Assembly: GCF_002795825.1 (NCBI RefSeq)
Contig: NZ_CP018800.1
Span: 1,982,001 to 2,046,000, forward strand
Reading direction: 5' to 3'
Length of the DNA stretch: 64,000 bases
Source of the DNA: Mariprofundus ferrinatatus
GTDB lineage: Bacteria > Pseudomonadota > Zetaproteobacteria > Mariprofundales > Mariprofundaceae
The position numbers were made by a program, and so were the translations under genes. The notes under the pieces are model-generated. The model saw nothing but the letters and a program-made list of their open reading frames with translations, searched no databases and had not been told where the DNA came from. Every line of letters starts with the position of its first letter. The first letter of the stretch is position 1. Below, one piece after another: positions 5,311 through 18,557 of the stretch.

Positions 5311-5342
5311 TTTATCTAGAATAATGAGATGGAGTGTTAGCC

Positions 5343-6503
5343 ATGAAGCAACGACGTCGGATTTACTACTCAGAAACTCAACGAGCTGAGATTTGGGATC
5401 GTTGGAAGCGAGGAGAATCTCAAGGCTCGATCGGCAAGAGATTTGATCGGGCCTCATCTTCTATTTACACCGTATTGTGTCCAACCGGTGGCATACGCCC
5501 TGTGCCAAGAAAGCGCGCTGAAACTTCGCTTACGCTTTCCGAGCGTGAAGAAATATCGCGAGGTCTTTCTGCCAAGCAGTCGATACGATGGATTGCCAAA
5601 CAATTGAATCGTTCGCCGTCGACAATTAGCAGAGAAATTCAAAGGAATGGTGGCATCCGAGCCTATCGGGCAGCCAAGGCTGATAAGTTGGCCTGGGAGA
5701 GAGCGCATCGCCCCAAACCATGTAAGCTGGCTATGAACAATGAGTTGAGGGATGCTGTCTCCATCAAGCTGGAACTGGAGTGGTCTCCGCAGCAAATATC
5801 CGGCTGGTTGAGACGGGAATATCCGGAGAATGATGGCATGCAGGTATCGCATGAAACGATCTATAAAACCCTATTCATACAGGCCAGAGGGGCACTGAAA
5901 AAAGAGTTGCAACAGCATCTTCGCTCCAAGCGCGCCATCCGCAGATCGCTTCATGCGGGCAAGGAGTACAATAAACCTGGCCAGATACCGGACATGGTCT
6001 CGATCAGAGAGCGTCCGGGCTCTGCCGAGGACCGCGCGCTTCCCGGTCACTGGGAAGGCGATTTGATTGCTGGCTCAAACAACAGCTATATCGCCACGCT
6101 AGTGGAGAGACAAACACGGTATGTCATGTTGCTCAAAGTGGCCGACAGAAAAACTGAGACAGTGATCAATGCGTTAATCGAACATGCCAAGAGACTGCCG
6201 GATGAGCTGTATAAATCTCTGGCTTGGGATCGGGGCAAAGAAATGACCGATCACAAACGCTTTACCCTGGCTACCGACATCAAGGTCTACTTCTGTGATC
6301 CGAGTAGCCCGTGGCAGCGTGGTTCCAATGAAAACACTAATAGGCTACTGCGCCAGTATTTCCCGAAAAGAACCGACTTATCGATTCACTCACAAGAGCA
6401 CCTGGATATGATCGCCAGGCGCCTCAATGAGCGTCCAAGGCAGACGTTGAATTTTGAAACGCCGGCAGAGAGATTTGATGCATGTGTTGCAGCGACCGCT
6501 TGA
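5343..6503 (+). CDS. IS30-family transposase
   Basis: A 386-residue DDE transposase. An N-terminal helix-turn-helix region (YYSETQRAEIWDRW; later IAKQLNRSPSTISREIQRN) binds the IS ends. The catalytic core shows the first Asp in GHWEGDLI, the second in LAWDRGKE and the Glu in SNENTNRLLRQYFPK, the classic IS30 DDE pattern. The frame is uninterrupted, so the enzyme could be active. The ATG at 5343 has GGAG at 5331-5334; an upstream GTG at 5334 overlaps that site. The stop codon lies inside the right inverted repeat. Confidence 0.95.
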   Translation: MKQRRRIYYSETQRAEIWDRWKRGESQGSIGKRFDRASSSIYTVLCPTGGIRPVPRKRAETSLTLSEREEISRGLSAKQSIRWIAKQLNRSPSTISREIQRNGGIRAYRAAKADKLAWERAHRPKPCKLAMNNELRDAVSIKLELEWSPQQISGWLRREYPENDGMQVSHETIYKTLFIQARGALKKELQQHLRSKRAIRRSLHAGKEYNKPGQIPDMVSIRERPGSAEDRALPGHWEGDLIAGSNNSYIATLVERQTRYVMLLKVADRKTETVINALIEHAKRLPDELYKSLAWDRGKEMTDHKRFTLATDIKVYFCDPSSPWQRGSNENTNRLLRQYFPKRTDLSIHSQEHLDMIARRLNERPRQTLNFETPAERFDACVAATA

Positions 6504-8374: not shown

Positions 8375-9184
8375 ATGATTCGCGGTGAGAACCTCAGTAA
8401 ACGTTACGATAGTGCAATTGCCCTTGCTCCGACCGATATCCATATCGCGGCAGGCAAGATCACAGCCATCATGGGGGGTTCCGGCTCCGGAAAAACGACG
8501 CTGCTGCGCCTGCTCTCGGGGCTCATCAAACCGACCACAGGCCATATCTGGTACGGCGACGAAGACCTCAGCACTATTTCTGACAAGCGCCTGTATGAAC
8601 TGCGTGAGAGTATGGGCATGCTGTTTCAATACTCTGCCCTGCTCAATTCGCTCAATGTTTACGACAATGTCGCCTTCCCACTGCATGAACATACCGACCT
8701 CGACGAGTCGGTGATCCGCACCATGGTCTCCATGAAGCTTGAACAGGTGGGGTTGCGTGGCTTTGAACACCTGATGCCATCGGAGCTCTCCGGCGGCATG
8801 GCCAAACGCGTTGCCTTTGCCCGCGCTATCGCCATGGATCCGAAAATCGTTTTCTTTGATGAGCCCACCTCTGGCCTTGACCCTATCTCGGCAGGCGTGA
8901 TCACCACGCTGATCAAGGATACTTCGAAAATGAACCGCATGACTTCGATCGTCGTCACCCACGATGTGGAAGCAGGACTTGCCATTGCCGACCACGTGAT
9001 CCTGATGTGGCAGGGCAGCATCATTGCCGAAGGCAATCCGGAAGTAATCCAGGAGAGCAGTGATGAGCGCGTACGGCAGTTTCTCGAGGGACGCCCCGAC
9101 GGACCTATCCCCTTTTCGCGCAGCACCACCTCTTACGTTGATGATTTGACCTACAGACCGGGAACCGTAAGGCTGGAAGTATGA
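8375..9184 (+). CDS. mlaF: Phospholipid transport ABC ATPase MlaF
   Basis: ATPase of the Mla inner-membrane complex that moves phospholipids between the membranes. All catalytic motifs are present: Walker A GGSGSGKT (34-41), Q-loop Gln85, signature LSGGM (138-142), Walker B IVFFDEP (158-164), D-loop SGLD and the switch His in VVTHD. The LNSLNVYDNVAFPLHEH segment is typical of MlaF. It overlaps mlaE by 4 nt (ATGA). A second, degenerate MlaF-like protein is encoded at 15100. Confidence 0.95.
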   Translation: MIRGENLSKRYDSAIALAPTDIHIAAGKITAIMGGSGSGKTTLLRLLSGLIKPTTGHIWYGDEDLSTISDKRLYELRESMGMLFQYSALLNSLNVYDNVAFPLHEHTDLDESVIRTMVSMKLEQVGLRGFEHLMPSELSGGMAKRVAFARAIAMDPKIVFFDEPTSGLDPISAGVITTLIKDTSKMNRMTSIVVTHDVEAGLAIADHVILMWQGSIIAEGNPEVIQESSDERVRQFLEGRPDGPIPFSRSTTSYVDDLTYRPGTVRLEV

Positions 9185-9984
9185 GCGAGATATCCACAAC
9201 CACTCAATCAGGTATCGCCACCTTTTTCGGCCGGATGGGCCGCTATGCCATGCGTGGCATCGAACACCTGGGCGACGGCACCCGTCTGGCATTCCACGCC
9301 CTCTCCCTGCTGTTTGCAAAACCGTGGCAGGGCAAACATTTTGTCATCCAGCTCTATGCGCTGGGTGTCGGATCGCTGGCGATTATCGTGATCACCGGCG
9401 CATTTACCGGCATGGTACTGGCGCTGCAGGGTTACTACACACTGGCCAAATTCGGCTCTGAATCACTGCTCGGAGCCGGTGTCGGCATGTCGATTATCCG
9501 TGAGCTGGGTCCGGTGCTGGGCGCCTTCATGATTATCGGGCGTGCCGGCTCGAGCATTACTGCCGAAATCGGCATCATGCGGGTGACAGAACAGACCGAT
9601 GCCCTGGAGATGATGGCGGTAAACCCGATGCAACGCATCATTCTTCCGCGCATCATCGCCACCACACTGGCCGTACCTCTGCTGGTGTCGATCTTCGATG
9701 TGGTCGGCATCGGGGCCGGATATATTGTCGGCGTGGAGCTGCTGGGAGTAAATCCGGGCGCCTATATGGCTGAACTTGTTGCCAAACTCGAGATGATTGA
9801 CCTTAACGGCGGCTGGGTGAAAGCGGTCGTCTTCGGCTTCATGATCGGAACGATCTGCACCTATATGGGCTACCGCGCCCAGCCCACCACGGAAGGTGTG
9901 GCCAAAGCGACCACGCAGGCTGTGGTTATCGCCTCGGTCAGCGTACTGATCATAGATTATATTCTGACCTCGTTCTTCCTGTAA
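9181..9984 (+). CDS. mlaE: Phospholipid transport permease MlaE
   Basis: A 267-residue inner-membrane permease of the MlaE family. It has an amphipathic N-terminal helix and several membrane helices; hallmark segments are GAFTGMVLALQGYY, RELGPVLGAFMIIGRAGSSITAEIGIMRVTEQTDALEMM and FGFMIGTICTYMGY. It works with MlaF and MlaD. It is translationally coupled to mlaF and followed 9 nt later by mlaD with GGAG before its ATG. Confidence 0.96.
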   Translation: MSEISTTTQSGIATFFGRMGRYAMRGIEHLGDGTRLAFHALSLLFAKPWQGKHFVIQLYALGVGSLAIIVITGAFTGMVLALQGYYTLAKFGSESLLGAGVGMSIIRELGPVLGAFMIIGRAGSSITAEIGIMRVTEQTDALEMMAVNPMQRIILPRIIATTLAVPLLVSIFDVVGIGAGYIVGVELLGVNPGAYMAELVAKLEMIDLNGGWVKAVVFGFMIGTICTYMGYRAQPTTEGVAKATTQAVVIASVSVLIIDYILTSFFL

Positions 9985-9993
9985 GGAGTTGTA

Positions 9994-10443
9994 ATGCAAG
10001 CATATAGAAAAACAGAGATGACTGTCGGCGTATTTGTATTTATCGGACTGGTGGCCATTGCCTGGCTCGCCATCAAAGTCGGCCAGATCGGCGGCATAGG
10101 CGCATCCGGCTATACCCTGACCGCCAACTTCAAGGATGCCGGCGGCGTCCGCAAGGGCAGCGATATCATGCTGGCCGGGGTGGTGATCGGACGCGTTGAT
10201 GATGTGGTGCTGACCGACAATGACCACGCCACGATGATCCTTCGTATCAATGATGGTGTTGAGATCACTGAAGATGCCTTTGCCTCGGTACGCACCAAGG
10301 GGATTATCGGCGACCGCTATATCCGAATCTCTCAGGGCATGGAAGAGACGCCGCTGGAGGCGGGCAGCGAGATCGAAGAGACAGAGTCTGCCATCAATAT
10401 CGAGGACCTGATCAGCAAGTACATATTCAGCGGCAAGGAGTAA
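9994..10443 (+). CDS. mlaD: MCE-domain protein MlaD
   Basis: A 149-residue periplasmic-facing protein anchored by one N-terminal helix (about 10-27). The single MCE domain (about 37-115) is clear: YTLTANFKDAGGVRKGSDIMLAGVVIGRV and TKGIIGDRYIRISQG. MlaD forms a hexameric ring on MlaE that passes lipids to MlaC. Length and position match a classical mlaD. The C-terminal tail ends in ISKYIFSGKE. Confidence 0.95.
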   Translation: MQAYRKTEMTVGVFVFIGLVAIAWLAIKVGQIGGIGASGYTLTANFKDAGGVRKGSDIMLAGVVIGRVDDVVLTDNDHATMILRINDGVEITEDAFASVRTKGIIGDRYIRISQGMEETPLEAGSEIEETESAINIEDLISKYIFSGKE

Positions 10444-10506
10444 TCATTCCTCCTCGCAGCGAGCTGCAGGACTTTTAAACTATCGGTACATGACAAGGAG
10501 CTTTCC

Positions 10507-11121
10507 ATGATGAAACTTTTCCGTACAACCTTTGCTATCCTGCTGACCATGCTTGTCTCCACTACGGCATGGGCAGCAGACAGCGATCCGAAGGTGGTGA
10601 TTGAAACAACCGTTAACCAGATTATTCAAGTGCTTGAGGCGCGTGAAGACACCACCAAACTGACCACCAAAGATCGCGATGCGATCCGGCAGACGGTCGA
10701 AGGACGCTTCGATTATGCCGCCATGGCACGCCGCAGTCTCGGCAAACCATGGAACGACCTGCATGGAGAGCAACAGGCCCATTTCACCCAGGTCTTTCGT
10801 GATCTGCTTGAGCGTTCATACGGCAACCGACTGAGTGAGTACAAGGGTCAGAAGGTGGTCTTTGCAGAAGCCGAACTCAAAAATGACAAGGCGCGCGTCG
10901 AATCCACTGTCATTGACGGGACACGCGAAACACCCGTGGAGTACCGGCTGCATCAGACCAAAACCGGCTGGCAGGTTTACGACATCCGCATTGAGGGCAC
11001 CAGCATGGTGCGAACCTTCTATCAGGACTTCCAGGCGACGCTGGATAATGGCGGCTACGAACATCTGCTGAAAACATTAGAGGAGAAGGTTGCGGAACTG
11101 AAGGCCAAGGATCAGGACTGA
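10507..11121 (+). CDS. mlaC: Periplasmic phospholipid-binding protein MlaC
   Basis: A 204-residue secreted protein with a signal peptide ending TTAWA-AD. The mature part has MlaC features: GRFDYAAMARRSLGKPWNDL, FRDLLERSYGNRL, VEYRLHQTKTGWQVYDIRIEG and SMVRTFYQDF. It shuttles phospholipid across the periplasm between the MlaD ring and the outer-membrane partner (MlaA is not in this window). AAGGAG precedes tandem ATGs. The gene for MlaB, expected next in E. coli, is replaced here by a large AsmA-like gene. Confidence 0.95.
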   Translation: MMKLFRTTFAILLTMLVSTTAWAADSDPKVVIETTVNQIIQVLEAREDTTKLTTKDRDAIRQTVEGRFDYAAMARRSLGKPWNDLHGEQQAHFTQVFRDLLERSYGNRLSEYKGQKVVFAEAELKNDKARVESTVIDGTRETPVEYRLHQTKTGWQVYDIRIEGTSMVRTFYQDFQATLDNGGYEHLLKTLEEKVAELKAKDQD

Positions 11122-11140: not shown

Positions 11141-14100
11141 ATGAAGGGCAGTTTCTCAAGACGCGCGCTGGCTTCATGCTGGCGCGTATCGCTTCTGCTG
11201 CTGCTGGGTCTCTCTCTGCTTGGCGGCTGGCTCTACTGGCAATCGCCAAGCCTGGACACCATACGGCCCGGCATCGAAAGCCAGTTAAAAAAGAAACTTC
11301 AGCTTAAGGAGATAAAGCTGGGGAAGCTGAGCTGGAGCTGGTATGACTTTCTCTGGCTGAAATCCGACCATCTCGACTTCACCAGTAGCGATGATGCTGT
11401 CGCCTTCCACGAAGGCGGCATTGCCGTACGCATCCCGCTCGCAAGCCTCCTCAGCGGCAACCTTCTTCCCGACCGTATCCGTCTTTCCGGCGGTGTTCTG
11501 GATATAGCCCACAGCGACTCCGACGGGGCCGAATTACCCAGAATGCAACTGGTACTCGACGATGTGCAGACCAACTGGCGCTATAATGACGACTGGCACG
11601 GATCCCTTTCCCATCTTCAACTCATGTATGATGGCGAAGAGAAATTGCTGCAGGTAGCAACATCCGATTTCACCATCTCCGCTTCGCTGAGCGAAGACCT
11701 GCTGCCGCAGGAGATAAAAGTGCAGTGCGATAACCTGCAGTGGCTGCCGGCACCTCTGCAGGGATATTTTAACGGCAGCAGTGCGGCATCGCTGAATCTC
11801 TCCCGAACCGGCAGAAGAGGATGGGAGCTCAACGCATCGGCCGCATCCGATCAACCTCTTATCCTGCTGCCTGATACCATCTATTCCGTTGCGCTCAACA
11901 GCGCCGAACTGCGCCTTAAGCTGAAGGCCCGGCAAGACACAGCTTTTGCCGTAGAGCATATCAGCCTGGAAAAGGTCTCCTGGGCACTTGCTGAAAGCAG
12001 CATCGAGGCCAAGGGCAGCTGGAGTGCAGGCCTCCTGACCATGCAGGCAACCTCTGAACGGCTGTCCATGCCGGTGGTCTGGTCGTGGCTGAGGCCGCTT
12101 GGTGATGAGACCTGGCATCACTGGCTGGCATCCATGAAGTCAGGCCTGGCAACTCAGGCAAATGCAAAGCTATCACTGGCATGGGAAGAGCCGTTTAAAT
12201 CACTGCCGAGTGCTGAGAACTGGCAGGCAATGCTGTATCAGGTCTCCGCACAGGTGGAAGAGACCGATATCGCCCTCGGTATCTCCGAAGATTTCCTGAG
12301 TGACACCACTGCCCAGGTCGACCTGAATCAGAATGGACTGAACGCTGTGATAGCCGATGCGGAGCTTCCGAAGGGGCTTGGTCGCTCTGCAGGCGAGCTC
12401 TATATACCCTGGCAGACGCTGGAACTGCATATCTCAGGCAGGTCACATGTGGATGTCAGCGCTCTGCTGGGCTGGTTCGGCCCTGCCGAAATTTCCGGCT
12501 GGCAGTGGAACGGCGCCAAGGCAGAGAGCGCCTTCCAGCTGGTCTGGGACCCCAGTGAACCTGAACCGCGCGAGGCGACTGCCGAGCTGCAGCCTGTCAG
12601 CGACTGGAACGTCTTAATCAACGGCACAAAAATCGCCCTTTCCGCAGGCAAAGCAAACTGGGATCAGGAGAGCGGCCTCTCTATTGCAGGCATGCATTTC
12701 CGCAATCAGCACATTGAGGGGACCCTTTCGCTTGCCACCTCTATCGGTAAAGAGGAGCGCTGGAATATTACTGAGCTTGAGATGAGTTCGAAGAGTGATT
12801 TCGCCATGCTTGCCGCCCATTTCCAGCTGCCGCTGGCGCAGGCAGGAGGATTGATCTACAGCAACCTGAAGTATGACGGCAAATGGAGAGGCAGTGCGGA
12901 CCTGAAGGAGGCAAGCTGGAAGCAGCTGCTCGGCTCAGACAAGAAAACCGGCGAGCCTTACTCGATCCACTGCAGTGGCGAACTTGATCTGCAGGCGAAC
13001 ACACCAACCATCAACCTGACAAGCCTTACCAGTCAGGGAACAGGGCTGTTGATCCGAGGCAGCAGTGCCAGCATTAACCGTGAGCGCCTTAAACTCAGTC
13101 TGAATGACCTGCATACCCCCTCTTTCAGCGGTTCGCTGAAAATCCATATGCCATTTGGCGACGCTCCCTGGCAGCTGAGTGTCGATGCAGACTACCTTAA
13201 CCGCAACGCACTGCCGCCTTCGCTTGATTACAATGAGCAGATGGTCGACAAACCCTGGCTGCTCTCTGCCAATCTCAGGAAATTTGACTGGGACGATTCA
13301 CGCATGCAGGGCGTCTTCATCAAACTGGCTTCTGCAAAAGGCAGTGTGGGGCTATTCAGTGCCAAACAGGTTCACACAACCCAGCTCGATATCACCGATA
13401 TCGACAGCCGTTTCTCACTGCCGGGCGGCGGACTTGTAGATCTGAGGCATCTGTCTGCCAGCATTGAAAAGCAGAGACTGGCCATGTCTGGAACCCTGAA
13501 ACCGGAAAAGGATGGGGGCATGCGCTGGCAGGGCTTTGCAGAACTGCATGGCGATTTCGCCCATCTTCTCAGGCGAGGCAGGCTTTCAGAACGTTTTATG
13601 GGTGGCGATGTCCACCTGCTCTTCTCCGGCAGTGGGATTATCCTGCGTGAACAGCCGTGGTGGCAGGGCCTGGATGGGCGGCTTCGCCTGCGCGCCGATA
13701 AGGGACGTATTCTCGAAGGAGGATCGCTGACGACACTGCTGGCAGCCACCAACCTATCCAAGCTTCCGATGCTGCTGCTGGGCCAGCGTGAAGACCTGAC
13801 CGGCCCGGGCATCATGTATGAACGGCTGCAGATGGAGGCGATCATGCAGAATCAGAATATTCATGTCCGCAATGTGGCCATGCGCTCGACAGCCTTCGAT
13901 CTGGCCGGCCATGGGGAGATGAACCTTGAATCGACCTCGGTCGACCTCTATCTGGTGCTGCAACCGCTGCAAAACCTTGATGCGCTGCTGGCAAAAATCC
14001 CGCTACTGAGGGATATCCTGGGCGGCAGCTCTCACAGCCTTTTCCGCAAGGTGTACCGTATGCATGGCCCATTCACCAATGCCAAGGTAGAACAGGTGAA

Positions 14101-14224
14101 TCCTGAACAGGCCGGGCTTGCTTCTGCAGGACTTATCGAAGGGCTCCTGACCCTTCCTTCGCTCTGGTTCAGCAGCGGGAAGAGCAAAACCGGATCAGAG
14201 GAGCCAGCCACGGCACAACAATGA
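11141..14224 (+). CDS. Large AsmA-like (YhdP/TamB-type) membrane protein in the mla operon
   Basis: A 1027-residue protein with an N-terminal membrane helix (about 17-34), a long beta-rich periplasmic region and an AsmA-like C-terminal domain (GGDVHLLFSGSGIIL, GRILEGGSLTTLLAATNLSKLP, FDLAGHGEMNLESTSVDLYLVLQPL, RDILGG). That end resembles YhdP, one of the bridge proteins for bulk phospholipid transport. It starts 19 nt after mlaC with AAAGGA before the ATG, so it is co-transcribed with mlaFEDC. Which AsmA subfamily it belongs to cannot be fixed by eye. Confidence 0.82.
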   Translation: MKGSFSRRALASCWRVSLLLLLGLSLLGGWLYWQSPSLDTIRPGIESQLKKKLQLKEIKLGKLSWSWYDFLWLKSDHLDFTSSDDAVAFHEGGIAVRIPLASLLSGNLLPDRIRLSGGVLDIAHSDSDGAELPRMQLVLDDVQTNWRYNDDWHGSLSHLQLMYDGEEKLLQVATSDFTISASLSEDLLPQEIKVQCDNLQWLPAPLQGYFNGSSAASLNLSRTGRRGWELNASAASDQPLILLPDTIYSVALNSAELRLKLKARQDTAFAVEHISLEKVSWALAESSIEAKGSWSAGLLTMQATSERLSMPVVWSWLRPLGDETWHHWLASMKSGLATQANAKLSLAWEEPFKSLPSAENWQAMLYQVSAQVEETDIALGISEDFLSDTTAQVDLNQNGLNAVIADAELPKGLGRSAGELYIPWQTLELHISGRSHVDVSALLGWFGPAEISGWQWNGAKAESAFQLVWDPSEPEPREATAELQPVSDWNVLINGTKIALSAGKANWDQESGLSIAGMHFRNQHIEGTLSLATSIGKEERWNITELEMSSKSDFAMLAAHFQLPLAQAGGLIYSNLKYDGKWRGSADLKEASWKQLLGSDKKTGEPYSIHCSGELDLQANTPTINLTSLTSQGTGLLIRGSSASINRERLKLSLNDLHTPSFSGSLKIHMPFGDAPWQLSVDADYLNRNALPPSLDYNEQMVDKPWLLSANLRKFDWDDSRMQGVFIKLASAKGSVGLFSAKQVHTTQLDITDIDSRFSLPGGGLVDLRHLSASIEKQRLAMSGTLKPEKDGGMRWQGFAELHGDFAHLLRRGRLSERFMGGDVHLLFSGSGIILREQPWWQGLDGRLRLRADKGRILEGGSLTTLLAATNLSKLPMLLLGQREDLTGPGIMYERLQMEAIMQNQNIHVRNVAMRSTAFDLAGHGEMNLESTSVDLYLVLQPLQNLDALLAKIPLLRDILGGSSHSLFRKVYRMHGPFTNAKVEQVNPEQAGLASAGLIEGLLTLPSLWFSSGKSKTGSEEPATAQQ

Positions 14225-14281: not shown

Positions 14282-15103
14282 ATGGATGCTAAAGGCCAGA
14301 TAACAGGGCGAATCAATCGTCATGCTGATCAACTGGGGGGAGCCGTGATCCGCATCTTTGCTGATTTTCGGCGCGCCTACCGGCTCACCACTGACATACT
14401 GGCAGTCGGCCTCAGAATGCAGTGGGTTTCCAAGCCTGCCGTCAGCAATGTCGTGTTCCGGCAAATCTATTTTACGGGCGTACAGGGTGTTCCCTGGGTT
14501 GTTCTTGTCGCACTCGGTGTCGGTGCCCTCTCCGTGTATAATATTGTGGATCTGGCCAAGAGTATTCAGGACATGTCCATGATTGGGCAGCTGATATCCA
14601 CACTGCTGGTGCAGGAGATTGCACCGCTGATTGTCACCATCCTGTTGCTCTCCCGCTCGGGTGTTGCCGTGGTGACTGAGCTGGGCACCATGCATGTGCG
14701 CGGTGAAGACCTGACGCTCGGCAGCATGGGAATCAACAAGACCGAGTACCTTCTCTGGCCCCGCCTTATGGCCTTCACACTATGCGGTCTCATCCTGACC
14801 TTCATCTTCGTGTTTGTATCGATCTGGCTGGGCGGATTGATGGTATCGCTGGGTTATGAGATCAACTTTATCGATTTTCTGATCGAGGTGCGCCGGGGAA
14901 CGACCATGGAAGAGATCGTCATGCTTCTCGGCAAGGCCACCCTCTACCCCATGCTCAGTGCCGTGATGCTGCTGAATATGGGTTGCAAAGTAGGACGCGA
15001 ACCCAACCTTATCCCGGTCTATGCCACACAGGGCGTGCTTGGGTCCCTGATGCTTGTGGTGATGAGTGATGCCCTGATCGCCCTGATCGTGGAGCTTGCA
15101 TGA
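14282..15103 (+). CDS. Second MlaE-family permease
   Basis: A 273-residue permease with the MlaE fold: an amphipathic N-terminus, QIYFTGVQGVPWVVLVALGVG, LVQEIAPLIVTILLLSRSGVAVVTELG, and GINKTEYLLWPRLMAF. It differs clearly from the MlaE at 9181, so it is a paralogue rather than a recent copy. It overlaps the next gene by 4 nt (ATGA), which puts it in a tight operon with an ATPase-like protein and an MCE protein. The start could also be an internal codon; the ATG at 14282 has weak ribosome-site support (AAAGCAAGC). Confidence 0.88.
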   Translation: MDAKGQITGRINRHADQLGGAVIRIFADFRRAYRLTTDILAVGLRMQWVSKPAVSNVVFRQIYFTGVQGVPWVVLVALGVGALSVYNIVDLAKSIQDMSMIGQLISTLLVQEIAPLIVTILLLSRSGVAVVTELGTMHVRGEDLTLGSMGINKTEYLLWPRLMAFTLCGLILTFIFVFVSIWLGGLMVSLGYEINFIDFLIEVRRGTTMEEIVMLLGKATLYPMLSAVMLLNMGCKVGREPNLIPVYATQGVLGSLMLVVMSDALIALIVELA

Positions 15104-15777
15104 GCGACCTTCTGCACTGGAACAGACTGCAGCTGGGAAATATTGTGATTCCAGAAGGTCAGGTATCCCATGGTGAATACGTCCGCATGGTGATGAATTA
15201 CCCCTGTCAGTACGCATTCATGCAGCAACTCTTTCTGCTTTCAGAGGAGAGTCGAAACAGCAGTAGCGAGATGTGGCTGGAGAGTAACGGCGAAAAATAT
15301 TATGCGGGGACCGCGGAGTTCAGTTCACGTATCGGCAGCATGATCCGCCAGCGGGGACTGATTGCCAACTTAACGCTCCGGGAGAACCTGCTATTGCCGT
15401 TTCTCTACCACGGCGACAAACATCGCCTTGATCAGGCGACGGATGAGGCGGCCGAAGTGGCAGAAAGGCTCGGCATCGCATCTGCTCTGGATGAGAAGGC
15501 TGGCGAGCGAACAACCTATACGCACGCGTTGATGAGTCTGGCCCGCTGCATGCTTGCAAAACCGGCAATCATCGTTGCCCAGGAGGTCCATATCGGAATG
15601 CCGCCGGATCACCTTCAGCGATTCAGGGAGCTGAGCACGCAGACACTTGCTGAACTTGGCTCGGGACTGCTCTATCTGACATCCAGTGCCGATGAAGGTT
15701 CCGGGTTGAGCTATGCGCGCACATTGACGATTGAAGCGGATTCCCGAAGTCTTGACTCTGATAAGGAGAACAGGTGA
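15100..15777 (+). CDS. Degenerate MlaF-like ABC ATPase (predicted catalytically inactive)
   Basis: A 225-residue protein in the place of MlaF in the second MCE operon. Its middle aligns with MlaF: IRQRGLIANLTLRENLLLPF (82-101) corresponds to the Q-loop and NSLNVYDNVAFPL region, and LARCMLAKPAIIVAQE to the helix after the signature plus Walker B. The nucleotide-binding motifs are gone. After GEY (25-27), where Walker A should be, the sequence reads MVMNYPCQYAF. The LSGG signature is absent (TTYTHALMS), and the Walker B Asp is Gln161. The frame is open and coupled by 4-nt overlaps on both sides, so it looks maintained rather than a pseudogene. Membership of the ABC fold is inferred. Confidence 0.72.
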   Translation: MSDLLHWNRLQLGNIVIPEGQVSHGEYVRMVMNYPCQYAFMQQLFLLSEESRNSSSEMWLESNGEKYYAGTAEFSSRIGSMIRQRGLIANLTLRENLLLPFLYHGDKHRLDQATDEAAEVAERLGIASALDEKAGERTTYTHALMSLARCMLAKPAIIVAQEVHIGMPPDHLQRFRELSTQTLAELGSGLLYLTSSADEGSGLSYARTLTIEADSRSLDSDKENR

Positions 15778-16772
15778 GCCAATTTGTAGCCAATATTCAT
15801 CGCCAGGTAGGATGGTTCGTCATCCTCGGTATCGGTGCGATTCTCTTTCTTCTGCTTGCCTTCAGCCTGCGCACCGACCTGTTTGCCAACAAATTCAATC
15901 TCCTGTTTTCACCGACATCCGCCTCCTCATTCTATGTTGACCAGCCGCTTAAATATCAGGGTTTTACTGTTGGAAGAATCGACGACATGGAGCTGCAGGA
16001 AGATGGGCGCGTGCTTATCAGGCTTCGTGTCCTCGAGCGTTACCGCCCGATTATTCACGAAGGCACTTACGTTCAGCTGACCCGTGAAGGGCTGATCGGT
16101 GAGCAGACCCTTGAGATCAGCGGTGGCGATGCCGGCAAACCCCCGGTGCAGGATGGTCAGACGATCGAGTACCGAACCGCAGCAACGGTCGAACAACTGC
16201 TGCAGGACATCAAGCCGGCTGTCGAAAACGCCAACAGGCTGCTAAGTGAGATGGCGGCACTCGCCGCCTGGCTGAACAATCCTGAAAGTGATATCAGGCT
16301 TGTTACTGCGCGACTGAATTTGGTCAGCCAGGACCTGAACCGCGAGAATGTCGGCAAGCTGATCACCAACCTTGCCGATGCGCTGGAGAATCTGAAGTCA
16401 CTGACTCAGGATTTGGAGCAGCAGCAGGTTGCCAAACAGCTTTCAACCGCCCTTGAAGCGAGTGCCTCAATCCTGACAAATCTGCGTCCGCTGGCCGCAC
16501 AGGTTGGCAGAGAGGGGCCTGAAAGCCTGAAGCGGATCAATAGCCTGATCGACCATGTCAACAGGCTCTCCAAATCACTTGATATTGTCACATCCGACCT
16601 CTCTGAGCTGACACCTGAGCTTCCCGGACTGGCCCGGGAATCACGACAGGCCATTGCCGAAATGCAGGATATTTTAAAATCGATGCGTGGTTCATGGCTT
16701 GTCGGCGGAGGAACAACCGTGAAGCCGGAAGATGAAACGGTTGCGCCCCCGGTGCTGGAGATGAAACCGTGA
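15774..16772 (+). CDS. MCE-domain protein with long helical tail
   Basis: A 332-residue protein: one N-terminal helix (about 14-31), an MCE domain (about 40-125; FYVDQPLKYQGFTVGRID, YVQLTREGLIGEQTLEISGG), then a long helical region (about 140-300) with heptad-like leucines, and a Pro-rich end. This resembles MCE proteins whose helices form a needle across the periplasm rather than the short MlaD. The GTG start follows AAGGAGA and overlaps the upstream stop by 4 nt. It is presumably the partner of the permease at 14282. Confidence 0.88.
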   Translation: MSQFVANIHRQVGWFVILGIGAILFLLLAFSLRTDLFANKFNLLFSPTSASSFYVDQPLKYQGFTVGRIDDMELQEDGRVLIRLRVLERYRPIIHEGTYVQLTREGLIGEQTLEISGGDAGKPPVQDGQTIEYRTAATVEQLLQDIKPAVENANRLLSEMAALAAWLNNPESDIRLVTARLNLVSQDLNRENVGKLITNLADALENLKSLTQDLEQQQVAKQLSTALEASASILTNLRPLAAQVGREGPESLKRINSLIDHVNRLSKSLDIVTSDLSELTPELPGLARESRQAIAEMQDILKSMRGSWLVGGGTTVKPEDETVAPPVLEMKP

Positions 16773-17698
16773 TGGGATACAAACAGCCGCTGATCATCGC
16801 GATACTATCCCTGCTGCTGCTCTCCTGTGGTGCATCCGGTCCCAAAAAGCCGCCTGAAGTTGTTAACCCCTATACCATACAGGCAGAAACACACACCGGT
16901 AATGGCCTGGCAGCCATGCAGAAAGAGCGCTGGGATGCAGCCGAGCGCTCCTTCTCCCGGGCACTTGCGGCCTCACAGCTGGCAGACGATTCCCCTCTTA
17001 TCAGACGCTCGTGGTACAATCTGGGCACGGCTCTAAGCGGGGCAAACAACCTTGCCAGGGCCGAAGAGGCTTACAGCAGAGCCATCGAACTGTCCGCGAA
17101 CGACCATGATGAACCCATGCGGCTGCGGGCCCTGCTCGCTTTGCGACTGATGCAACAGCGTTCGGGAAGAATCCCTGAGACCTTCGCTATACAGCAACTG
17201 CCGCAAAGCCTCTTTTCTCATCTGAGCTGGCCAGCCGACCTTCACCTTCAGGCCGGACGCATAGCCCAGCGGCTTGGCGATCCGGCGCGTGCGCGCAGCG
17301 CATACGTGCTGGTGACCCAGCTGAAATCATCAAATGCAAGCAGCCTGCAGCTCAAGGCCGGCGCCCACATGGGGCTTGCACTGCTTGCCCGTGATGCGGA
17401 AGATAATCCAACTGCATGGCAGGAGTCTGAGCAGGCCCTCTTATTGTGCCGCAAGGTCGGAGCGCCCAGGCTAACCGCGCATGCTCTTCTGCTGCAGGGG
17501 GAGTTGTCACACGACGTCTCAGAAAAACATAACCGGCTGGAGCGTGCACTGGATATCTATTCAGCCCTGAATGATCCAAATGGGGAAAAGAGAGCTATCG
17601 AACAGCTGCTCCTGCTTGCCGAGGCTGAAGGCAATGATGAAGCGGCCAGCTTGCTGCGGTTGCGTTTGCAAAGCATCAAAGACAAGCTTGGGAAGTAG
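16769..17698 (+). CDS. TPR-containing lipoprotein of the second MCE operon
   Basis: About 309 residues. A signal sequence ends in a lipobox LLSC (Cys about 20), followed by a linker and tetratricopeptide-like repeats (NGLAAMQKERWDAAERSFSRAL; WYNLGTALSGANNLARAEEAYSRAI; further helical pairs to the end). The position suggests an outer-membrane or periplasmic partner of the MCE protein, like the PqiC or LptE-type accessory lipoproteins found in other MCE operons, though the fold is different. The start is either GTG 16769 (GGAG 8 nt upstream) or ATG 16772; the two differ by one residue. Confidence 0.8.
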   Translation: MMGYKQPLIIAILSLLLLSCGASGPKKPPEVVNPYTIQAETHTGNGLAAMQKERWDAAERSFSRALAASQLADDSPLIRRSWYNLGTALSGANNLARAEEAYSRAIELSANDHDEPMRLRALLALRLMQQRSGRIPETFAIQQLPQSLFSHLSWPADLHLQAGRIAQRLGDPARARSAYVLVTQLKSSNASSLQLKAGAHMGLALLARDAEDNPTAWQESEQALLLCRKVGAPRLTAHALLLQGELSHDVSEKHNRLERALDIYSALNDPNGEKRAIEQLLLLAEAEGNDEAASLLRLRLQSIKDKLGK

Positions 17699-17707
17699 AC
17701 TGGAAAA

Positions 17708-18241
17708 GTGGCAGTTACAGTGAACCAGCGAGGTGACAACATAGGCAATCCTGAGAGAGCCATGCCCGGCAAATACCAGCGCGGAAAGAGCTGCAGAATA
17801 AGTCTGCAGCTGGACAGCAACAGCGACTGTGTCGAGGTGCTGCGCTCCATCGTAAGCGTCATGACTGCAAGAGCCGGCATGGATGAGTTGCGCAGCAACA
17901 GAGTCGCGGTTGGTGTGGATGAACTGTTTGCCAATATTGCCGCACATGCCTATGGCGGCAAACCAGGCAGGATTGAGGTTGATGCCTGTCTCGAAGAGAG
18001 GGGCGAAACTCGATTTCTCATATTTGATTTTCGCGACTATGCTAAGGTTTGCTGGCGAGGAGACATCGAGAAGATTGCCAATCAGCCGCTGGATGTTGAA
18101 CACCTCTGTCCGGGCGGACTGGGTCTCAGGCTGATTCATTCGGTAAGTGATAACTGTGAACACCATGAGCTCGAAGATGGCAACCGCTGGCAGCTTATTT
18201 TTAATGTCTGTAATGGAGAGAAAGATGGACACGAATCTTAA
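17708..18241 (+). CDS. RsbW/SpoIIAB-like ATP-binding regulator (HATPase_c_2)
   Basis: A GHKL-type ATPase of the anti-sigma/serine-kinase class. The N-box NRVAVGVDELFANIAAHAYG and the G2 box CPGGLGLRLIHSVSD are clear. The G1 region reads LIFDFRDYAKV, keeping the first Asp but lacking the usual glycine. Such proteins bind or phosphorylate STAS partners, and the next gene encodes one. A start at ATG 17762 is as likely as GTG 17708; the domain begins after both. It follows the TPR lipoprotein by 9 nt. No sigma factor gene is visible nearby. Confidence 0.8.
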   Translation: MAVTVNQRGDNIGNPERAMPGKYQRGKSCRISLQLDSNSDCVEVLRSIVSVMTARAGMDELRSNRVAVGVDELFANIAAHAYGGKPGRIEVDACLEERGETRFLIFDFRDYAKVCWRGDIEKIANQPLDVEHLCPGGLGLRLIHSVSDNCEHHELEDGNRWQLIFNVCNGEKDGHES

Positions 18242-18557
18242 ATTTGAACGCAGCGACCTGAGTGCCAATAACATTCAGCTCCGGGTTTTCGGTGATGTCA
18301 CCATACACACCTCAACCCGCCTTCGTGAGCAACTCAAGCCTCTCTACACCACCAAGACCCAGCGTATCCATGTGCAGCTTGATCATGTCGACTTCATGGA
18401 CTCATCGGGTATCGCCACCCTCGTGGAGGGTCTGCAGTGGTCCCGCCTGACCGGCGGAAAGTTCATCCTCTCCGGCCTGAAAGAGAATGTACGCGATATT
18501 TTCTCACTGGCCAAGCTCGATACCGTTTTTGACATCGAAGATACCAGCCAGACATGA
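18225..18557 (+). CDS. STAS-domain protein (anti-sigma antagonist or MlaB-like)
   Basis: A 110-residue single STAS domain. The segment [16 protein letters not shown] contains the Ser pair at 60-61 that is phosphorylated in SpoIIAA/Rsb[16 protein letters not shown] and the C-terminal [19 protein letters not shown] match the family. It could pair with the preceding HATPase protein, or act as MlaB, the STAS subunit of MCE transporters, which is otherwise missing from both MCE operons here. The ATG at 18225 follows GGAGAG and overlaps the preceding gene; its stop overlaps ubiD (ATGA). Confidence 0.87.

Follow-up and report, generated by a model that had tools for sequence, protein, structure and literature searches.

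A candidate MlaE-based MCE system with a conserved pseudo-ATPase in place of MlaF in Mariprofundus ferrinatatus and other Proteobacteria

The Mla system (MlaFEDB) of E. coli, Acinetobacter and Pseudomonas shares with the locus described here the fold of the MlaE permease, an MCE protein, a cytosolic subunit of ABC fold and the logic of the operon. In E. coli the exchanges K47A and E170Q in the Walker A and Walker B motifs of MlaF, or a deletion of its C-terminal tail, abolish Mla function (PMC7367683). The unit analysed in this work, which we call operon D, differs from Mla in four respects: its cytosolic subunit has neither the ATPase motifs nor the C-terminal handshake, its MCE protein carries a long helical tail, it has a TPR lipoprotein of its own, and MlaB and MlaC are absent from the unit.

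With operon D as it is proposed here, the PqiABC and LetAB systems share the MCE conduit, an inner-membrane partner, the lack of a known ATPase and, in the case of Pqi, an outer-membrane lipoprotein. They differ from it in that PqiA and LetA are not members of the MlaE family, that PqiC is an ABC-auxiliary lipoprotein and not a TPR protein, and that neither system has an ABC-fold subunit. According to the authors of the PqiABC study, PqiA, if it transports at all, does so passively, with the help of an ATPase yet to be identified, or by use of the proton motive force (PMF) (PMC10897342). A nonworking nucleotide site is likewise found in degenerate heterodimeric ABC transporters (TAP, TM287/288, MsRv1273c/72c); these still bind ATP and retain one site in complete form, whereas the D subunit keeps no catalytic motif. 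The minimal MlaEFD of Veillonella is of the Mla type, with an MCE protein that is elongated and believed to reach across the envelope; its MlaF is described as close to that of model diderms and not, like the subunit reported here, as degenerate (PMC10665443).

For Mla, Pqi and Let both the energy need of the MCE system and the direction of lipid movement are debated. Here conduit and motor come apart in nature, in an MlaE system whose ABC subunit is apparently unable to use ATP, and the energy question becomes directly testable. No description of an MlaE-MCE system with a pseudo-ATPase nucleotide-binding domain, occurring across several lineages together with intermediates, was found in the open-access literature, which is the literature that we searched. 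The single parts (MlaE, MCE, ABC fold) are of known kinds.

Operon D and its pseudo-MlaF subunit

Operon D is composed of four genes on the plus strand at positions 14282-17698 of the window, by which we mean the whole stretch of 64,000 nucleotides of Mariprofundus ferrinatatus DNA that was analysed. The genes are translationally coupled, with a 4-nt overlap at each junction, and encode the divergent permease MlaE2, the ABC-fold protein pseudo-MlaF, an MCE protein and a TPR lipoprotein (Table 1); members of such units are referred to as D-type. A sequence-only reading of the window had proposed this gene order with its coordinates and overlaps, and an intact frame for the ATPase-like gene, coupled on both sides. 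All of these were confirmed.

Table 1. Features of the window discussed in this work (coordinates are positions of the window)
Feature	Coordinates	Strand	Evidence
MlaE2, divergent MlaE-family permease, D-type	14282..15103	+	PF02405; coupling helix RGED vs TEQxD
Pseudo-MlaF, ABC-fold protein without catalytic motifs, 225 aa	15100..15777	+	Profiles, alignments, AlphaFold2, Foldseek, dN/dS
Lost Walker A site (MVMNYPCQYAF)	15187..15219	+	Alignment vs 18 intact MlaF: glycine-rich P-loop absent
Permease-docking segment ANLTLRENLLLPFL, retained	15364..15405	+	Invariant or near-invariant columns among orthologues; docking Asn and Pro in 51/51 D-type
MCE protein	15774..16772	+	PF02470 E=1.9e-9, residues 49-118
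TPR lipoprotein, lipobox LLSC, +2 Gly; predicted outer-membrane	16769..17698	+	TPR families, lipobox
Canonical intact mlaFEDC (comparison)	8375..11121	+	MlaF, MlaE, MlaD and MlaC families; Walker A/B and LSGGM intact

MlaE2 matches PF02405 (MlaE) with 134.7 bits (E=4.5e-39, cut-off 22.5) and falls under the cut-off of TIGR00056. Its AlphaFold2 model (pLDDT 88.5) has MlaE (6xbd/7cge) as best Foldseek match, with a TM score of 0.8. By profiles and fold the permease is thus of the MlaE family, and a PqiA/LetA-type inner-membrane protein is not encoded in operon D. The MCE protein scores 38.1 bits against PF02470 (MlaD; cut-off 25.1), its other weak matches being coiled-coil families. Pseudo-MlaF scores 18.1 bits against PF00005, below the cut-off of 25, and has weak matches to ATPases of the LolD/LivG type. 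Its AlphaFold2 model (pLDDT 87.9, pTM 0.85) retrieves ABC nucleotide-binding domains from the PDB with Foldseek (E~1e-10, TM about 0.7), including MlaF (6xbd_I, E=1.6e-9) and MceG (8fed), and the protein modelled alone is therefore predicted to have the ABC nucleotide-binding-domain fold.

Pseudo-MlaF was aligned with its orthologues, 33 in the Zetaproteobacteria, and with 18 MlaF proteins of the same class, all of which (18/18) have intact catalytic motifs. The sequence-only reading had stated that the protein has no Walker A, no LSGG signature and a Gln for the Walker B Asp, and the three losses hold throughout the orthologues. The glycine-rich P-loop is lost in 33/33, with a Gln inside the former P-loop in 32/33, and the Q-loop Gln, the second signature Gly, the H-loop His and the Walker B Asp are each found in 0/33, the last being replaced by Gln in 32 and by Glu in one. 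In the window RTTYT stands in place of LSGGM and IVAQEV in place of VFFDEP (Asp to Gln), and the Q-loop Gln is changed to R, most orthologues having R or H. The D-loop Asp is also gone, and the C-terminal tail of MlaF is missing, the conserved residues of the tail aligning to gaps in the orthologues. A segment from the Q-loop to the helical domain had been thought to be retained. This is right for the part just after the Q-loop, NLSLRENLLLPF, which is the best conserved part of the protein, and wrong for the Q-loop Gln itself. The permease-docking segment ANLSLRENLLLPF is fixed among the 33 Zetaproteobacterial orthologues. In ABC proteins the segment after the Q-loop adjoins the cleft which receives the coupling helix of the permease.

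The dN/dS ratio of pseudo-MlaF is 0.06-0.19 over divergent pairs of relatives, near that of MlaE2 (0.06-0.09); the gene is kept under purifying selection and is not decaying. The new fixed residues, i.e. the Gln of Walker B and the Gln of the former P-loop, indicate that pseudo-MlaF is selected for something else. A homologue search showed that the loss of motifs is common to the whole clade, and no close homologue with intact motifs was found. Together with the predicted ABC fold this supports the view that a pseudo-ATPase stands in MlaF's place, whereas a pseudogene is rejected on the dN/dS values and the clade-wide conservation. That operon D is nevertheless on its way out is highly improbable: D operons are missing from many relatives, but the frames are intact, the ratios are low over divergent pairs and residues such as the Walker B Gln have become newly fixed.

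Two further MlaE systems with intact ATPases, B and C, are present in the same genome (L097:3959-10912). Operon B (MlaE-MlaF-MCE-TPR) has a four-gene order identical to that of operon D, including the TPR protein, with a fully intact ATPase; operon C encodes STAS-MlaE, MlaF, MCE and a lipoprotein. A derivation of D directly from operon B is unsupported, the permease of B grouping with canonical MlaE.

Distribution of the module and intermediate forms

Across 78 genomes of the class, the pseudo-ATPase gene follows the permease gene at every MlaE2 locus that we examined, and those loci that were read at greater length continue with the genes for MCE and lipoprotein. The same four-gene unit is found in a genome from another family (G037), and a congener (G009, L149) carries the series ilvE-mlaFEDC-asmA-HATPase-STAS-ubiD without the four genes, which come and go together. 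The module lies away from mlaFEDC in most genera, adjacency being confined to part of one genus. Canonical MlaE is present in nearly every D-bearing genome, canonical Mla occurs in D-lacking genomes too, and four near-complete genomes (G023, G065, G071, G077) have only one MlaE system besides D, the canonical Mla.

A family limited to the Zetaproteobacteria was first suggested. The strongest match of the first pseudo-ATPase profile outside this class (G128) is an ordinary ABC ATPase. The limitation to the class was overturned by a profile of MlaE2, which in 399 genomes of the phylum gave at least 343 bits for whole genes and at most 117 bits for all others; the best two matches below this gap, in G041 and G363, carry D-type units. 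The engine-less four-gene set is therefore found in other proteobacterial branches too. G363 has a second type of pseudo-ATPase, GLISNLRVWENIILPVQYHG, accompanied by genes for MCE and lipoprotein, and this second clade is present in 13/200 sampled genomes of its order. Two candidates (L178, L180), both of them ordinary ABC ATPases in intact form, were left out of the D-type set. In the G363 group (L182:2024-3817 and L183:5630-7429) reading of the translations suggests a CHASE2-like membrane protein between the lipoprotein and permease genes.

D-type units of five genomes (G041, G435, G516, G528, G476) encode intermediate ATPases. Of these, 4/5 keep the Lys of Walker A and 3/5 the Asp of Walker B together with the His of the H-loop, and 5/5 have lost the Gln of the Q-loop as well as the two glycines of the signature. 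Among all 51 D-type proteins none has the Q-loop Gln and none a complete signature, and every one has the docking Asn and the docking Pro. The system clearly exemplifies an ABC nucleotide-binding domain that has been conserved after its catalytic motifs were lost, and intermediates survive in other genomes. Since signature and Q-loop are absent in all 51 proteins, they were probably lost first, and Walker A then probably more than once.

The permeases of the three D groups form one clade apart from canonical MlaE (support 99.9/100), and the groups are individually supported with 100/100, 97/99 and 100/100. Branching among the three is weak, the pairing of BD and SD having 53/72, so that we infer the number of Walker A losses. 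The coupling helix, which reads E-[QE]-x-D in canonical MlaE, has mostly become G-E-x-x in the D-type permeases. By the Lol rule, a residue other than Asp at position +2 directs a lipoprotein to the outer membrane. All D-locus lipoproteins read have a lipobox and never an Asp at +2, which points to the outer membrane; in that of L188 the first match of the pattern falls within an N-terminal extension, and LTGC is the likely lipobox.

Proposed working of operon D and alternative explanations

Our preferred reading, to which we give a probability of about 0.58, is that operon D encodes an ATP-independent MCE lipid conduit built on MlaE, with the pseudo-ATPase as structural or regulatory subunit. 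Two copies of pseudo-MlaF would dock via NLSLRENLLLPF onto an MlaE2 dimer at its coupling helices and form a structural or regulatory base, an MCE hexamer with its long helical tail would make the periplasmic conduit, and the TPR lipoprotein would receive it at the outer membrane. The complex would let lipids pass without hydrolysing ATP, following a gradient or powered by another source, as has been discussed for Pqi; operon D would resemble Pqi and Let in operation and be their MlaE-built counterpart. Transport as such, its substrate and direction, the stoichiometry, the formation of the complex and the source of energy we infer. As E. coli MlaF is nonfunctional with dead Walker motifs or without its tail, pseudo-MlaF cannot work as MlaF does. 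Some transporters with the engine-less set probably run without ATP. In the intermediates, four of which retain the Lys of Walker A and three the Asp of Walker B and the His of the H-loop, ATP binding may still matter. For the wider proposal the odds are about even; it holds that an MlaE-MCE clade across several proteobacterial lineages gave up ATP, with signature and Q-loop lost first and Walker A more than once, and that its pseudo-ATPase docks onto the coupling helix in a passive or externally driven lipid bridge.

The sequence-only reading had left the role of the subunit between a passive or structural one, a transporter driven another way, and a pairing with the active MlaF encoded 6 kb upstream in an asymmetric ATPase. 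The first two together remain the best reading, and the pairing is disfavoured. In such an arrangement an active MlaF, either the canonical one or one from operon B or C, would share MlaE2 or a mixed MlaE/MlaE2 dimer with pseudo-MlaF, and a single site would work. The degenerate heterodimeric ABC transporters (PMC12038006) offer a precedent, mlaF lies 6 kb upstream in the window, and canonical MlaE is present in nearly every D-bearing genome. An ATP site however takes its Walker A and B motifs from one subunit and its signature from the partner (PMC12038006), and a subunit without Walker A and signature leaves neither site of a mixed dimer complete. As pseudo-MlaF supplies neither, an ATP-independent conduit is favoured over the mixed dimer. 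The limited adjacency to mlaFEDC, the canonical Mla of D-lacking genomes, the missing handshake and the altered coupling helix also stand against it, and we hold this pairing to be quite unlikely.

An unlinked ATPase could also act in trans on the operon D complex, replacing the pseudo subunit on MlaE2, which would then be an inhibitor or placeholder gating access. In mycobacteria MceG serves several Mce permeases (PMC9947336), and several MlaF-type ATPases are encoded in the same genome as operon D. Such sharing is nevertheless unlikely, given that the coupling helix has changed together with the pseudo subunit, that a pseudo-ATPase is found at every MlaE2 locus examined and that the four genomes named above offer canonical Mla as the sole second MlaE system. 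Also unlikely is a complex serving as scaffold or sensor, as envelope tether or in signalling, with no lipid transport; loss of the motor, the protein-binding fold of the TPR lipoprotein and the RsbW-like kinase and STAS neighbours of many loci are consistent with it, but the MCE domain and the MlaE fold are kept and the kinase/STAS pair occurs without D as well.

Neighbouring genes

Downstream of operon D (17708-18557) are genes for an RsbW-like HATPase and a SpoIIAA/STAS protein, the latter with a weak match to the NCBIfam MlaB model (22.5 bits). This pair often has ubiD on one side and the D operon or mlaFEDC-asmA on the other. No mlaB lies beside the canonical mla operon here, and for this reason the pair could be a phospho-regulated substitute of MlaB; as a D-specific obligate substitute it was rejected, being also present without D. 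Directly after mlaFEDC a 1027 amino acid YhdP/AsmA-like protein is encoded (11141-14224), also in D-less genomes. Upstream of ilvE and mlaFEDC lies an ORF of 389 amino acids (5334-6503) whose translation resembles a transposase of the IS30 type. In several genomes of the second order (L186-L190, L235, L236) the module lies, as read from the translations, between trxB-like and rpsB/tsf-like genes.
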